Program-made: the position numbers and the translations under genes
The notes under the pieces: generated by a model
Databases searched by the model: none
What the model was told of the DNA's origin: nothing
What the model saw: the letters and a program-made list of their open reading frames with translations, nothing else
Shown: positions 3,366-38,243 of the stretch, one piece after another
Layout of the letters: each line of letters opens with the position of its first letter
How positions within the stretch are numbered: position 1 is the stretch's first letter
Origin: a virus
Virus record (IMG/VR): IMGVR_UViG_3300002180_000032
Location: 1-38,243 of that record
Direction: 5' to 3' (one strand)
Length of the DNA: 38,243 nt

Positions 3366-3563
3366 TTACCATTCTCTTACTATTGGACTCACTGATTGTA
3401 TATCTACTATTTCTTTCTTAATTGTATCTAATAATGCCTCCTTGACAACCATACTTATTGTCTTACCATGCTGTGCAGCTAGTACATGAACTTGCCTCCT
3501 TTCTTCCATGGTCATATCTAGTACGACATGCCATTTTGCATTGTTCTCACTATTGGCTATCAT
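3366..3563 (-). CDS. Ribbon-helix-helix DNA-binding protein, leaderless
   Basis: A 65-aa protein from the ATG at 3563 (MIANSENNAK). It fits an Arc/CopG-like ribbon-helix-helix fold: one beta strand (KWHVVLDM, 10-17), helix 1 (TMEERRQVHVLAAQHG), a turn, and helix 2 (ISMVVKEALLDTIKKE). These proteins bind palindromic operators as dimers. A longer reading from a TTG at 3602 is open, but that codon is the start of the promoter -35 box. The -10 box ends 10 bases before the chosen ATG, so the transcript has at most a few leader bases and no ribosome site. As first gene of the recombination operon, it is a good candidate for autoregulation. Confidence 0.72.
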   Translation of the reverse strand: MIANSENNAKWHVVLDMTMEERRQVHVLAAQHGKTISMVVKEALLDTIKKEIVDIQSVSPIVREW

Positions 3564-3573
3564 CTCAATATAC

Positions 3574-3602
3574 ATTATATCATGCCAGGCCAGGCTTGTC
3601 AA
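3574..3602 (-). promoter_or_regulatory. Leftward sigma70 promoter for recombination operon
   Basis: On the minus strand, TTGACA (3602-3597), a 17-base spacer and TATAAT (3579-3574), with an extended -10 (TGA just before TATAAT). All consensus positions match. The predicted start lies 0-4 bases before the ATG at 3563, giving an essentially leaderless mRNA. Confidence 0.85.
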
Positions 3603-3606
3603 GCTG

Positions 3607-3613
3607 ACATAAT
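3607..3613 (-). promoter_or_regulatory. Candidate operator core (ATTATGT)
   Basis: The minus-strand heptamer ATTATGT lies four bases upstream of the leftward -35 box. The same core occurs at 3646, 4135, 4205, 11113, 13515 and 29018, nearly all next to promoters. The operator role is inferred. Confidence 0.35.
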
Positions 3614-3637
3614 GCCTAAAGCTTTATGACAAGCGTG

Positions 3638-3655
3638 AGCTTGACATTATGTATT
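3638..3655 (+). repeat. Left 18-bp direct repeat flanking HNH cassette
   Basis: AGCTTGACATTATGTATT recurs at 4199-4216 with one mismatch (17 of 18). The copies bracket the HNH gene and its terminator, and the left copy carries the -35 box. Recombination between them would excise the cassette and leave one copy. Confidence 0.6.
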
Positions 3656-3669
3656 CGATATGATACAAT
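3641..3669 (+). promoter_or_regulatory. Rightward promoter of the HNH gene
   Basis: TTGACA at 3641-3646, a 17-base spacer and TACAAT at 3664-3669, with an extended -10 TGA. The expected start, seven bases after the -10, is exactly the A of the ATG at 3676, so the mRNA is predicted leaderless. It is divergent from the promoter at 3574-3602. Confidence 0.8.
3645..3660 (+). repeat. Left arm of 16-bp inverted repeat around the HNH gene
   Basis: CATTATGTATTCGATA here is a perfect inverted match to TATCGAATACATAATG at 4127-4142. The left arm overlaps the promoter spacer and the right arm covers the HNH stop codon. Confidence 0.8.
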
Positions 3670-3675
3670 GCTAAT

Positions 3676-4140
3676 ATGACAGTTAATACAACTGGTGGGA
3701 TTAGGTTTGATGATAGCTACCACAAGGCTCATAGGGAAGCAAGTGCTAGGTATTGCAGGAATAATCCTGACAAAGTTAAGATGAATACACTTAGACAAAG
3801 AAAGCATAGAAGTGAGCATCTTGAGGAGCATAGAGAATACCATAAAAATTATCATAGAAACCAGCTTATTTTACTTAAGACTGGTCAATGGGTTAAAGCT
3901 GATTGTAAGCCTCCAAGACCAAAAGATGTATGTGATGTATGTGGTAAAGAAGCTAAGAAGTTGTACTATCACCACTGGGATGATAGCTTGCCAGAAGCTG
4001 GTATGTGGGTATGTCATACATGCCATGCTGGATGTGAGTTTGTTGATAAAGATTATCATACCAAATACCTTAGAACCAAGTCCATCATTATGACCCAGCA
4101 TGACATAAAACAATCATCATGTATTGTATCGAATACATAA
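3676..4140 (+). CDS. HNH-family endonuclease, free-standing cassette
   Basis: A 154-aa protein. Residues 10-65 are basic and His/Arg rich, probably for DNA contact. The C-terminal half has an HNH-type zinc fold: CDVCG (C86, C89), the catalytic-type YYHHWDD (H99, H100), and WVCHTCH (C113, C116, H117). The usual final His of HNH enzymes is replaced by a GCEF stretch, so activity is uncertain. The gene is opposite to its neighbours and has its own promoter, no ribosome site and its own terminator. Together with the flanking repeats this suggests a self-contained, possibly homing, insertion. Small phage HNH proteins can also act in packaging, but those normally sit beside the terminase. Confidence 0.72.
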   Translation: MTVNTTGGIRFDDSYHKAHREASARYCRNNPDKVKMNTLRQRKHRSEHLEEHREYHKNYHRNQLILLKTGQWVKADCKPPRPKDVCDVCGKEAKKLYYHHWDDSLPEAGMWVCHTCHAGCEFVDKDYHTKYLRTKSIIMTQHDIKQSSCIVSNT

Positions 4141-4142
4141 TG
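4127..4142 (-). repeat. Right arm of 16-bp inverted repeat
   Basis: TATCGAATACATAATG, a perfect inverted copy of 3645-3660, overlapping the last codons of the HNH gene. It also carries the ATTATGT core on the minus strand. Confidence 0.8.
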
Positions 4143-4221: not shown

Positions 4222-4428
4222 CTAGTCCAGTATATCTATTGTTAACCTTGCTTTCCATTCTTTACGAGATGTTACTATTGGCTTATGTGGGAGTGCATCT
4301 ATAGCTATACGTTCTCCAGTGTCAGTTTCAAATACTAGCTCCCAATCATCATAAGATACATCTCCATCTGGTGTCATTTCTGGGTAGGTTACTATTTTAA
4401 CTTTGCCTTGATAGGTACGGCTTTTCAT
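4222..4428 (-). CDS. Small hypothetical protein (68 aa)
   Basis: A 68-aa product starting MKSRTYQGKV after an AGGAGGAT ribosome site. The predicted content is beta-rich (KVKIVTYPEM, DWELVFETDTGERIAI). No family recognised. It is the promoter-distal end of the long leftward early operon, just before the HNH cassette. Confidence 0.65.
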   Translation of the reverse strand: MKSRTYQGKVKIVTYPEMTPDGDVSYDDWELVFETDTGERIAIDALPHKPIVTSRKEWKARLTIDILD

Positions 4429-4454
4429 ATCATCCTCCTATTTGGTTATTTTTA

Positions 4455-4673
4455 TTATTCCATTCCTTCAATTTTATTTATAATTCTCTTCATTTTGTCC
4501 TGGCATGGTTTGAGATTTTCATATAGATATTGTACATGGACTTCTGGACTATCTATTTCAGGATTACAGGAGAATCCCGCAGCGATTATATCTGCTGTTT
4601 CCCTGCAAACATCAAGCAGTTCGTAGTGGTTATCACTAAGGCTTTGTTCTAGTTTGTACCCCATTTTACTCAT
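4455..4673 (-). CDS. Small helical protein (72 aa)
   Basis: A 72-aa product starting MSKMGYKLEQ. It is largely alpha-helical with amphipathic segments (HYELLDVCRETADIIAAGF and YENLKPCQDKMKRIINKIEG). The start follows AGGAGGATGAA. Function unknown. It shares spacing and orientation with the flanking early genes. Confidence 0.62.
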   Translation of the reverse strand: MSKMGYKLEQSLSDNHYELLDVCRETADIIAAGFSCNPEIDSPEVHVQYLYENLKPCQDKMKRIINKIEGME

Positions 4674-4682
4674 TTCATCCTC

Positions 4683-5231
4683 CTATTTGGTTATTTTAGT
4701 TGCTACAATACCAAAGGAACAGCCGTCTAAGAATGGACGAAAAGTGTATTTATGGGTTCCATTCATTCTATATAATAGTTTTGCAATATTTGGCATGTAG
4801 CTCATTGGTTTATCATAGTACCCTTCATGACATTGTTTGTTGTTACTAAAGTACATTGATATACATGGACCTATTCCTGGCTTTTCATTTAACCATATCT
4901 TTAATTCCCTATTCATATTATCTACCTCCTTAACTTTGTATTTTTTCTCATTCATCTGTTCTATCTTACAGTATACAGTAAATCCTTCACATCCACCATA
5001 AAAGATACATTTACTACAATCATCGAAGTTACTGAAACCACGGATAGGACATTGCTCAGTCAGACCATCTCTATCAAATTGGATTTCTATCATTTTATCT
5101 CCTATGTCTCTTATTCTTTTTACCTCTTCTGCTCTTCCTATGAAGATGAGGAATAGATTTATAGCTCTTGCTAGAATTAGAACTCCTATAAAAGTTACTA
5201 ACAAATGAGAAAATGCTGTTACAGGATGCAA
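4683..5231 (-). CDS. Membrane-anchored Cys-rich protein; start uncertain
   Basis: The open frame spans 182 residues from a TTG at 5231. Residues 9-32 form a transmembrane helix (LLVTFIGVLILARAINLFLI), followed by a charged helix and Cys motifs (CPIRGFSNFDDCSKCIFYGGC). A second Cys/Tyr-rich half follows. The TTG has no good ribosome site. The strong site AGGAGGTAATA leads instead to an ATG at 5265 in another frame (see 5095-5265). Inside this frame, AGGAG precedes an ATG at 5093, and AAGGAGGTAGATAAT precedes an ATG at 4916. The region may therefore encode one frameshifted protein, or two or three nested starts giving 136- and 77-aa products. Function not recognised. Confidence 0.5.
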   Translation of the reverse strand: MHPVTAFSHLLVTFIGVLILARAINLFLIFIGRAEEVKRIRDIGDKMIEIQFDRDGLTEQCPIRGFSNFDDCSKCIFYGGCEGFTVYCKIEQMNEKKYKVKEVDNMNRELKIWLNEKPGIGPCISMYFSNNKQCHEGYYDKPMSYMPNIAKLLYRMNGTHKYTFRPFLDGCSFGIVATKITK

Positions 5232-7420: not shown

Positions 7421-7717
7421 CTATATATTGTAGATTCTTAAGTTTAATTTTTCTATAGCATATTTGAGAGTGTTAAGTAAGTCCATTACAACATCAAATT
7501 CTTTACAACAATTCTGACTACTCACATCTTCTAAGGGACAGTTAGAGCACCTCATATATTCTAAGCAGAGTCCGCACCGTCGGTGTCCCTCTATTGATAT
7601 AGTATCAATGGCTTTATATATTGACTGCCATTTCTTGAGTGAGCAGTCTTTACCAGGTATACCATTCTTAATGTCAACTTTTGCATCTTCTCCATCATAA
7701 ATCTCTATTAACTTCAT
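7421..7717 (-). CDS. Cys-rich protein downstream of structured leader
   Basis: A 98-aa product starting MKLIEIYDGE. It has a compact Cys cluster (CGLCLEYMRCSNCPLEDVSS, then CC), typical of a metal-binding fold, followed by a helical C-terminus. Translation starts after TAGGAGGGAAAA. The region 22-83 bases upstream of the start forms the predicted three-way-junction RNA at 7739-7800, the only gene in the operon with such a leader. Expression may be controlled there. Function unknown. Confidence 0.62.
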   Translation of the reverse strand: MKLIEIYDGEDAKVDIKNGIPGKDCSLKKWQSIYKAIDTISIEGHRRCGLCLEYMRCSNCPLEDVSSQNCCKEFDVVMDLLNTLKYAIEKLNLRIYNI

Positions 7718-7738
7718 TTTTCCCTCCTATGTATTGGC

Positions 7739-7800
7739 GGGAGTTCCTTGGCTGGGTCAGACAGCCAGTGAGGGAAAGGAGTAAAACCCTCGGAACTCCC
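7739..7800 (-). ncRNA. Predicted three-way-junction RNA element
   Basis: Three perfectly nested or adjacent stems fill 62 bases with almost no unpaired junction. The outer stem 7739-7747/7792-7800 is 9 bp (GGGAGTTCC with GGAACTCCC). Hairpin A 7749-7754/7762-7767 is 6 bp with a 7-base loop. Hairpin B 7770-7774/7787-7791 is 5 bp with a 12-base loop. On the minus strand the large loop reads TTTTACTCCTTT, which resembles an anti-Shine-Dalgarno. No T-run follows on either strand, so it is not an intrinsic terminator. It lies between two genes of one leftward operon, 21 bases from the next start. The fold is seen in the sequence; the function is unknown. Confidence 0.6.
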
Positions 7801-7817
7801 ATGATTTTATCTACTCC

Positions 7818-8072
7818 TTAACAGTTTTGTGGAGAAGGTTTGTGAGGTGCATCTTGTATTCCAGTTAGTGCTGGTAGTAACTCATTAGCATGGAAGCAAC
7901 TGCTGGTAGCATCAATAATTTGAACAAGGTAGGGATGCCTCTTATCACATCTACAACCTGGATTACCTGTAGTTTCAATGTCAATTACTATGCCTAACTT
8001 TCCAGCATGTATACCATTCTCATACTTACAATCTTTTCTAACCATTACTGGGTCATCAATCTTATATTTCAT
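7818..8072 (-). CDS. SH3/KOW-like small protein (84 aa)
   Basis: An 84-aa product starting MKYKIDDPVM. The N-terminal pattern (D-x-V-x-VRKD, GKLGIVIDI, HPYLVQI, then HANELLP) resembles small SH3-like barrel proteins common in phages and plasmids. CRCDKRH in the middle adds a possible metal site. The ribosome site is GGAGGTATT. The role is unknown; a nucleic-acid or protein contact is the usual inference for such barrels. Confidence 0.6.
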   Translation of the reverse strand: MKYKIDDPVMVRKDCKYENGIHAGKLGIVIDIETTGNPGCRCDKRHPYLVQIIDATSSCFHANELLPALTGIQDAPHKPSPQNC

Positions 8073-9793: not shown

Positions 9794-9871
9794 GTCCTTA
9801 CCTCCTTAATTTATTTAGCTACCTAGCCTACTCCTGCCTACCAATTGCTTGATAAGCAGAGTGTGGAATAG

Positions 9872-31484: not shown

Positions 31485-31495
31485 ACAAATAGTTG

Positions 31496-31522
31496 AGGGA
31501 GGAGCATTAAAAACTCCTCCCT
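31496..31522 (+). terminator. GC-rich stem-loop after decoration gene (attenuator?)
   Basis: AGGGAGGAG (31496-31504) pairs with CTCCTCCCT (31514-31522) over a 9-base loop. The stem is strong, but TT then AGC follows, not a T-run. It may attenuate or protect the upstream high-copy mRNA rather than terminate it fully. Confidence 0.5.
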
Positions 31523-31541
31523 TAGCAAATAGGAGGTGTAA

Positions 31542-36432: not shown

Positions 36433-38243
36433 TGAATTTAACTGCAATGCGGGCAGCCTTAAAGATTGAACTAGCTGATGCTGATTGGGATAATGACGAG
36501 CTAGACCGAGCAGTAACCGAAGCCGTTGCTGATTTATCCAGATACCTCCCAGATGAAAAGACCTATGAAGCTACCATCATCCTGGATATAGATGATGAGT
36601 CATGGACTAGTGCTGCTGCCCATGGAACTTATGTATCCCTGACTTATAAGCCTATTAAATACCAATCCGAGGTTGTGAAAAGTGCTGATGGCTTAACTAC
36701 ATATACCAGAGATACAGACTACACCATGGATTATGTGAACAGCAAGATAACTACAATTGACGGTGGTGACATGGCAGTAGATACAGAATATGCCATTAGC
36801 TACTACAAATCCAAATACTGCCTGGACATAACTTCTCTCCTTACTAACTTAATATCCATAGCACGAGTAGAGTATCCAGTCAAATCCACTGGTCCACAGA
36901 ACCTTGTTGTATTTAATCTCTGGGGTGACTTACTATACATAGGAACATACACTCCAACTAGTTCCAGTGAGTTCACTGAAAACAATCATATAGTAATATA
37001 CTACCTTGCTAATTGTACTATACCAACTGTAAGCGCAGATGGCAGCTTTGCCAGATACCTTGATGAGATAGTTCTCAAAGGCTCGACTGCTTATGCAATT
37101 ATGAGTCGGGGAGTTAAGGAACTTCACAATGCTAAAACTAACTATGGCAGTGCAGCAACTGTAATAGCTACTATAAGTAAAACCGATGCTGAGACTGCTT
37201 TAGGTAATGTAGGAGCAAGGATAACCGCAGCAACTACCGCACTAGCTAAAATTACTGGTGAAGCAACCAATATAGGCACTGCACTTACCAACATGGCTAC
37301 CTATATAGCCGATGCAAACATAGCATTAGATGTTGTACCAACTCACACAGCCACCGCTGTAACTGCCCTAGATGCGATAACTGGTGCTGGTAGTCCATTA
37401 ACAGATACAGAAACTGCCTTAGATGCAGCCATAGTACAATCCGAGGCTGGAGTAACCGCACTAGCTAATGTAGATACACTCATAGCTGCGGTAGCGACTG
37501 CTATTGAAAACATAGATGCTGTCATAACCGATGGTGACTCTGCATTGGACAAAGTAACTACTCAAATAGCATCTATGGCTACTGCACTCGGCGAGATATC
37601 CGCTATGTGGACTGATGAAATTACATATCGTGGTTATGCACATAGCTACCTAACCTCTGGTGACGACCATATAGACAAGGTTAACATCGGCGACCAAGTT
37701 GCTGCAATGTATTCTTCCTTTGCTAATGTGGAAGGTTCACTAGCTAGACTATCCGAAAGCAGGAGATCCATAAAACTCGGCGAAGCTAATGCTTATCTAA
37801 CCTCTGCTAACTCCTTCATTGCTGAGGCTAATTCCAGAATATCTCTTCTCAGTGGCTGGGTATCCAAAGCCAGAGCTATAATAGATGAGGTAAATGGTAG
37901 AGTAGCTGAGACCAATGGCAGGATAGCCATAGCTAACAGTTACAACTCCGAGGCCCAAGGTAGATTATACATAGCGGATAGATACATATCTGAGGCTGCT
38001 GGTAGATTATACATAGCGGATAGGTACATTACCGAGGCTGGTGGTAGGCTGTCCATGGCTGACAAATACATCGCTGAGGCTACCACACGCGTCAATTTAA
38101 TCAGCAATTACGTTGCTGAGGCTCAAGCTAATATAGCCCAGGCCAGTGCTTACATAGCACAAGCGCAAGGCTACGTAACAGCTAATGAGCTAATAGCTAG
38201 ACAAGCCGATGGCTATACGATTGTAGCTAATAATCAAGTGTTG
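36432..38243 (+). CDS. Tail/connector protein with 14-residue repeats, C-terminus beyond window
   Basis: An open frame of 604 codons from ATG at 36432 continues past the right edge. Residues 1-130 look like a gp6-like connector head (MNLTAMRAALKIELADADWD, DELDRAVTEAVADLSRYLPD). A beta-rich unit follows, and then a long Ala/Thr-rich helical region. From about 510 on, 14-residue repeats (EAxGRLYIADRYI) form a two-heptad coiled coil. Probably a connector/tail component with a repetitive stalk. The end of the gene is not visible. Confidence 0.6.
   Translation, partial: MNLTAMRAALKIELADADWDNDELDRAVTEAVADLSRYLPDEKTYEATIILDIDDESWTSAAAHGTYVSLTYKPIKYQSEVVKSADGLTTYTRDTDYTMDYVNSKITTIDGGDMAVDTEYAISYYKSKYCLDITSLLTNLISIARVEYPVKSTGPQNLVVFNLWGDLLYIGTYTPTSSSEFTENNHIVIYYLANCTIPTVSADGSFARYLDEIVLKGSTAYAIMSRGVKELHNAKTNYGSAATVIATISKTDAETALGNVGARITAATTALAKITGEATNIGTALTNMATYIADANIALDVVPTHTATAVTALDAITGAGSPLTDTETALDAAIVQSEAGVTALANVDTLIAAVATAIENIDAVITDGDSALDKVTTQIASMATALGEISAMWTDEITYRGYAHSYLTSGDDHIDKVNIGDQVAAMYSSFANVEGSLARLSESRRSIKLGEANAYLTSANSFIAEANSRISLLSGWVSKARAIIDEVNGRVAETNGRIAIANSYNSEAQGRLYIADRYISEAAGRLYIADRYITEAGGRLSMADKYIAEATTRVNLISNYVAEAQANIAQASAYIAQAQGYVTANELIARQADGYTIVANNQVL
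37959..38023 (+). repeat. 23-bp direct repeats inside the connector/tail gene
   Basis: A 23-base segment at 37959-37981 recurs identically at 38001-38023, spaced 42 bases (14 codons), so it repeats in frame with the coiled-coil units. The adjacent degenerate units give an array of at least five repeats to the window edge. Confidence 0.75.

Follow-up and report, generated by a model that had tools for sequence, protein, structure and literature searches.

The DNA analysed here (the window) is the whole of a 38,243-base virus record from a divergent phage, whose head protein matches phrog_212 and which encodes an AAA-domain, primase/helicase-like protein at 6260-5517. The minus strand carries most of the genes to the left of about 10.6 kb, and the element under study (7739-7800) lies in a 100-nt gap between two genes on that strand (8072-7818 and 7717-7421), so that minus is the relevant RNA strand. 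A reading made from the sequence alone had called it an early operon leader; it is instead intercistronic, between two genes within a running operon, and, as that reading had it, 21 nt separate the element from the start of a Cys-rich gene (98 aa, 7 Cys). Neither the 84-aa nor the 98-aa neighbour has a match in PHROGs, Pfam or phage records. Elsewhere in the window, 28-nt start-site repeats that are 96% identical (4425-4452 and 4670-4697) span the Shine-Dalgarno sequence and start of neighbouring genes, and a palindromic region at 3597-3667 and a 23-nt inverted repeat (91%) at 4120-4142, about 450 nt apart, are possibly operator or origin sites. The features of the locus and one further site are:

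7818 to 8072, minus strand: upstream gene for an 84-aa protein that matches no family.
7812 to 7819, minus strand: AAGGAGUA, which overlaps the stop codon of the upstream gene and is complementary at all 8 nt to loop bases 7783-7776 (state B).
7739 to 7800, minus strand: three-way-junction RNA element in the intergenic gap, state A of the proposed switch (-30.7 kcal/mol, z -4.7).
7792 to 7800, minus strand: 5' strand of the outer stem, GGGAGUUCC, paired with 7747-7739 in the fold.
7770 to 7791, minus strand: hairpin A of the fold, 5 bp, with a 12-nt loop UUUUACUCCUUU (7786-7775) that is anti-Shine-Dalgarno-like in the list of loop complements.
7749 to 7767, minus strand: hairpin B of the fold, 6 bp (UGGCUG/CAGCCA) with a 7-nt loop, in states A and B.
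7739 to 7747, minus strand: 3' strand of the outer stem, GGAACUCCC, whose CUCCC is predicted to pair with the downstream Shine-Dalgarno sequence in state B.
7695 to 7802, minus strand: 35-codon open frame MGVPRVLLLSLTGC..., a rival coding reading, which opens with ATG at 7802 and shares its frame with the upstream TAA.
7722 to 7728, minus strand: Shine-Dalgarno sequence AGGAGGG of the downstream gene.
7421 to 7717, minus strand: downstream gene for a 98-aa protein with 7 Cys that matches no family.
9808 to 9870, minus strand: another intercistronic element of this gene block, not homologous to 7739-7800; its family is common to relatives G006 and L156.

Recomputation of the fold returned the structure and coordinates of the sequence-only reading: both strands of 7739-7800 are predicted to form an outer stem of 9 bp around two hairpins of 6 and 5 bp, with a compact junction at which three bases are unpaired on the minus (sense) strand. 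Folding of the 62 nt is about equally favourable on the minus strand (-30.7 kcal/mol, z -4.7) and the plus strand (-32.1, z -4.1), 200 shuffles all fall short of the native stability, the pairs on the sense strand are all Watson-Crick, and the G+C content is 58% compared to 41% across the window. Nothing terminator-like is found at 7739-7800 on either strand, in agreement with the earlier remark that a T run is lacking; an intrinsic (Rho-independent) terminator was rejected because the stem has no T run, and no tRNA is predicted at 7739-7800.

When 62-nt pieces of the window's plus strand were folded at 2-nt steps, 7739-7800 came out as the most stable, ahead by 6 kcal/mol; the best 62-nt pieces in 11 shuffled windows range from -25.3 to -31.0. 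The shape alone, defined as a perfect 9-bp stem around two hairpins of at least five pairs each, is present in 35 of 400 shuffled windows, and a 9-bp inverted repeat of equal stability in 16 of 1000. The bare three-way shape is common enough; shape and energy together are rare, at about the 2% level per window, which is unusual, not overwhelming. Called genes leave approximately 14% of the window uncovered, and the location of the element in that part makes its stability more unusual.

Relatives of the phage were found through its head (capsid) protein (nine viral contigs, 51-75% identity) and by aligning the helicase-like protein (thirteen loci, of which several lie on contigs already found by the head protein), and in both sets the element is absent and there is no syntenic copy of the neighbour genes. 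A search via the neighbouring genes found no syntenic relative, a search of DNA from phages, the record itself and the relatives found no homologue of 7739-7800, which is a single copy within the window, and the helicase-like protein, used to look for a host, matched nothing among 84,980 genomes. Matches to the stem pattern in 2.9 million viral contigs were judged to be chance; the eight best-matched stretches are nearly all within long open frames, and their interiors are unrelated. A 13-nt match to the outer stem in relative L164 was also rejected, being inside a coding gene that has no such fold. No Rfam 15 family reaches its gathering score in the window or in the loci of five relatives. 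The CyVA-1 RNA (RF02965) has the same three-stem outline, with a GGGUUUUAC stretch entering the first loop, and its model aligns end to end with 7800-7739, scoring 14.8 bits (gathering score 41.4) with an E value of 0.5-0.8 over Rfam, or 0.05 when that family alone is asked of the window record; membership was rejected as sub-threshold and at chance level, the lead coming from the outline only.

Structured gaps are common in this phage group. Strong structures (z<-3) occur in 13 of 106 gaps of 40-200 nt between genes on one strand, compared to 8 of 424 same-length coding pieces from the same genomes, in a survey whose gene calls came from a simple script, so that some gaps are possibly miscalled, and in which one gap is common to L162 and L163, so that the 13 are not all independent. 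Many of these structures end 15-29 nt before the start codon and leave the Shine-Dalgarno sequence outside; in some, the predicted domain extends into it. In the window, the structured gaps besides 7739-7800 are 9794-9871 and 31485-31541; the latter (plus strand) holds a strong hairpin (z -4.8) with no T run, directly before a Shine-Dalgarno sequence in the right-hand gene region, and comparable hairpins are present in G003, G005 and G006.

Compensatory changes are found in two sequence families of gap structures. The family of 9808-9870 comprises the window copy (minus strand), G006 37316-37380 and L156 at about 3390-3520, and its pairing is kept through changes such as C-G to U-A in an alignment from which the L156 loop insert was trimmed. 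Its conserved hairpin (minus strand in the window) is followed by AAATAAA..AAGGAGGTA, and the L156 member carries an insert of about 90 nt in the terminal loop. When all viral contigs were scanned for an exact motif, this family turned up only in the L156 and G006 contigs, and its motif TAGGYAGGRRTRRGCTARKTAGCT, located in the long hairpin, is not present in 7739-7800. The second family is dispersed in L163 and L164 and consists of GCTAGACC...GGACGGTTTAGT, followed in several copies by AGTNAGGAGG. Its elements at L163 970-1060, 1586-1680 and 2248-2368 and at L164 2710-2824, 2993-3084 and 4041-4158 have a common outer stem and tail, stand before the Shine-Dalgarno sequences of different genes and show compensatory changes between copies; the one at L164 2710-2824 has a variable interior with a tRNA T-arm-like stretch, GAGGGTTCGACTCCCTC, in a locus where no tRNA is predicted. 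Among six copies, 4 of 12 outer-stem positions have double changes that keep the pair; the permutation control is weak (24 of 720 permutations pair at least as well), since the copies are for the most part near-identical.

By sequence, 7739-7800 belongs to neither family, having only position and general architecture in common with them. Sense-strand folding is the more favourable for most elements in the relatives (in G006, -37.3 versus -11.8), which points to RNA, whereas 7739-7800 lacks this bias (-30.7 sense, -32.1 antisense). The occurrence of other folds at similar positions in the gaps of relatives suggests that 7739-7800 is probably involved in local control of the next gene.

The three-way junction appears to be one of two competing predicted folds when its real flanks are included. 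Loop bases 7783-7776 (UACUCCUU) are a perfect 8-nt complement of AAGGAGUA (7819-7812), a stretch reaching into the upstream stop codon, and the CUCCC of the 3' strand of the outer stem is complementary to the downstream Shine-Dalgarno sequence AGGAGGG. At 37 C, over seven context lengths, the computed probability of the junction is 0.06-0.37 and that of the alternative fold is 0.63-0.93. When 7834-7807 is held single-stranded, in place of a ribosome at the upstream stop codon, the probability of the junction rises to 1.00 in all seven contexts and pairing of the Shine-Dalgarno sequence with the outer strand falls from 0.53-0.71 to 0.00-0.02; total accessibility of the Shine-Dalgarno sequence rises modestly, from 0.30-0.41 to 0.45-0.75, with a slight fall in the longest context. 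The energy gap between the two states is about 1 kcal/mol, which is inside the error of the energy model. A junction probability below 0.4 was obtained in 4 of 200 trials with both flanks shuffled; shuffling the upstream flank gave 9 of 200, shuffling the downstream flank 0 of 200, and the real flanks of other gene pairs of the same phage gave 16 of 200. These frequencies are suggestive, not proof, of a competition that depends on both flanks.

The reading preferred here, at a probability of roughly 0.4, is that 7739-7800 is a cis-acting intercistronic RNA element that controls translation of the downstream gene (7717-7421), most likely by coupling it to the upstream gene (8072-7818). With no ribosome present, the loop of hairpin A would pair with the AAGGAGUA of the upstream stop-codon region; the outer stem would open, and its 3' strand (CUCCC) would mask the downstream Shine-Dalgarno sequence. 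A ribosome terminating upstream would occupy AAGGAGUA, allowing the three-way junction to close, and closure would free the Shine-Dalgarno sequence. What the computation shows is the structure and where it sits, the rivalry between two folds, and the response to masking of the stop codon; we infer that such a switch acts in the cell and is important for the phage. Of the four roles offered by the sequence-only reading, translational regulator is the best supported, since the loop ACTCCTTT has an 8-nt partner and the outer strand complements the Shine-Dalgarno sequence; no feature was found in support of an exonuclease-resistant RNA or a packaging element.

Coupling by RNA unfolding is established for Escherichia coli rpmI-rplT and the coat and lysis genes of phage MS2 (reviewed in PMC12548453), in which, as proposed here, translation of the upstream gene unmasks the ribosome-binding site beyond the spacer; in rpmI-rplT, ribosome-dependent release of a masked start operates across a gap of +52 nt (PMC12548453). 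The present case differs in that the gap is 100 nt and the predicted release is junction closure, which removes the masking strand. In one screen, as cited in PMC12548453, coupling was reduced by strong structure just past the stop codon, which counts against the coupling reading of 7739-7800. Structured translation initiation regions are also found in phage T4, for genes e, soc, 49 and I-TevI and at the gene 26-25 junction (reviewed in PMC3014915), so that phage mRNA structure at a translation start, intercistronic in one case, has precedent; in genes e, soc, 49 and I-TevI, unlike here, the helix itself contains the Shine-Dalgarno sequence or start codon. Translational bypassing like that of T4 gene 60 was rejected on two grounds: UGU, the codon immediately preceding the stop, does not occur again in the stretch from the element to the next start, and a Shine-Dalgarno sequence of its own serves the downstream gene.

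The main rival to the coupling switch, itself unlikely, is a processing or stability element, either a stem cut by an RNase III-type enzyme or a 5' cap that shields the downstream mRNA from 5' exonucleases, with no switching. Such a role would suit an element that stands just before a Shine-Dalgarno sequence without a terminator T run, and the long hairpins that leave the Shine-Dalgarno sequence free in equivalent gaps of relatives; however, the continuous helices of 9, 6 and 5 bp are short for an RNase III substrate unless end-to-end stacking joins them, the protein search of 84,980 genomes did not identify the host and hence its RNases, and the complementarity between the loop and the stop-codon region is left unaccounted for. 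Next in likelihood, and also improbable, is a chance inverted repeat in a spacer, with no function. The bare shape arises in 9% of shuffled windows and conservation cannot be shown, but equal stability arises in just 1.6% of them, and a chance repeat would have had to fall within the approximately 14% of the window that called genes leave uncovered, in a phage group whose gaps are enriched for such structures.

A DNA-level element, in which a protein-bound inverted repeat or small inserted hairpin yields the RNA fold as a by-product, is less probable. For the similar extended start-associated sequences (ESAS), DNA binding was favoured by the authors who described them (PMC3203893), and the all-Watson-Crick pairing of the sense strand, the equal folding of both strands and the G+C content (58% versus 41% for the window) are in keeping with it; yet there is one copy in the window and none in the relatives, the ends have no visible target-site duplication, and the alternative pairing with the Shine-Dalgarno sequence makes sense in RNA only. 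The least probable reading is a 35-codon gene or leader peptide running through the element, with the fold incidental or secondary. The sequence-only reading had taken 7739-7800 as noncoding, on which the open frame casts some doubt: the frame has AAGGAG 11 nt upstream of its ATG and a lipobox-like LTGC, and MGVPRVLLLSLTGC may resemble a very short lipoprotein signal, but such a length often arises by chance, a spacing of 11 is poor (1 of 43 called genes), there is no match in phages or Pfam, and the frame overlaps the start of the next gene by 23 nt.

To return to the proposed control of translation by the element, its type is already known and its sequence is new. The nearest known arrangement is that of the ESAS repeats of Cluster K mycobacteriophages, inverted repeats located just 5' of the Shine-Dalgarno sequence and start of selected non-structural genes, many per genome, and judged not to support RNA pairing (PMC3203893). 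The dispersed elements of L163 and L164 are likewise present in copies at several starts, with a common outer stem and tail, and look like an RNA-level counterpart of ESAS; the relatives' elements, unlike ESAS, do support RNA pairing. The element at 7739-7800 differs from ESAS in being a single copy instead of occupying multiple positions per genome, and in having AUAGGAGGGAAAAAUG as its start site instead of a 13-bp GGGATAGGAGCCC repeat. A broader proposal, which is doubtful at present, is that this phage group may use dispersed structured RNAs, many right before Shine-Dalgarno sequences, for gene-by-gene control of translation, and that 7739-7800 may be a three-way-junction version closed by the ribosome at the upstream stop codon, freeing the next start. 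The function of ESAS in mycobacteriophages is unexplained, and the existence of an RNA-level version with compensatory changes in the relatives makes the RNA hypothesis for ESAS-like repeats testable. If the coupling reading is true, 7739-7800 would be a compact and directly testable case of two phage genes coupled in translation by a junction RNA, in an uncultured phage group where structured spacers before ribosome-binding sites are common.
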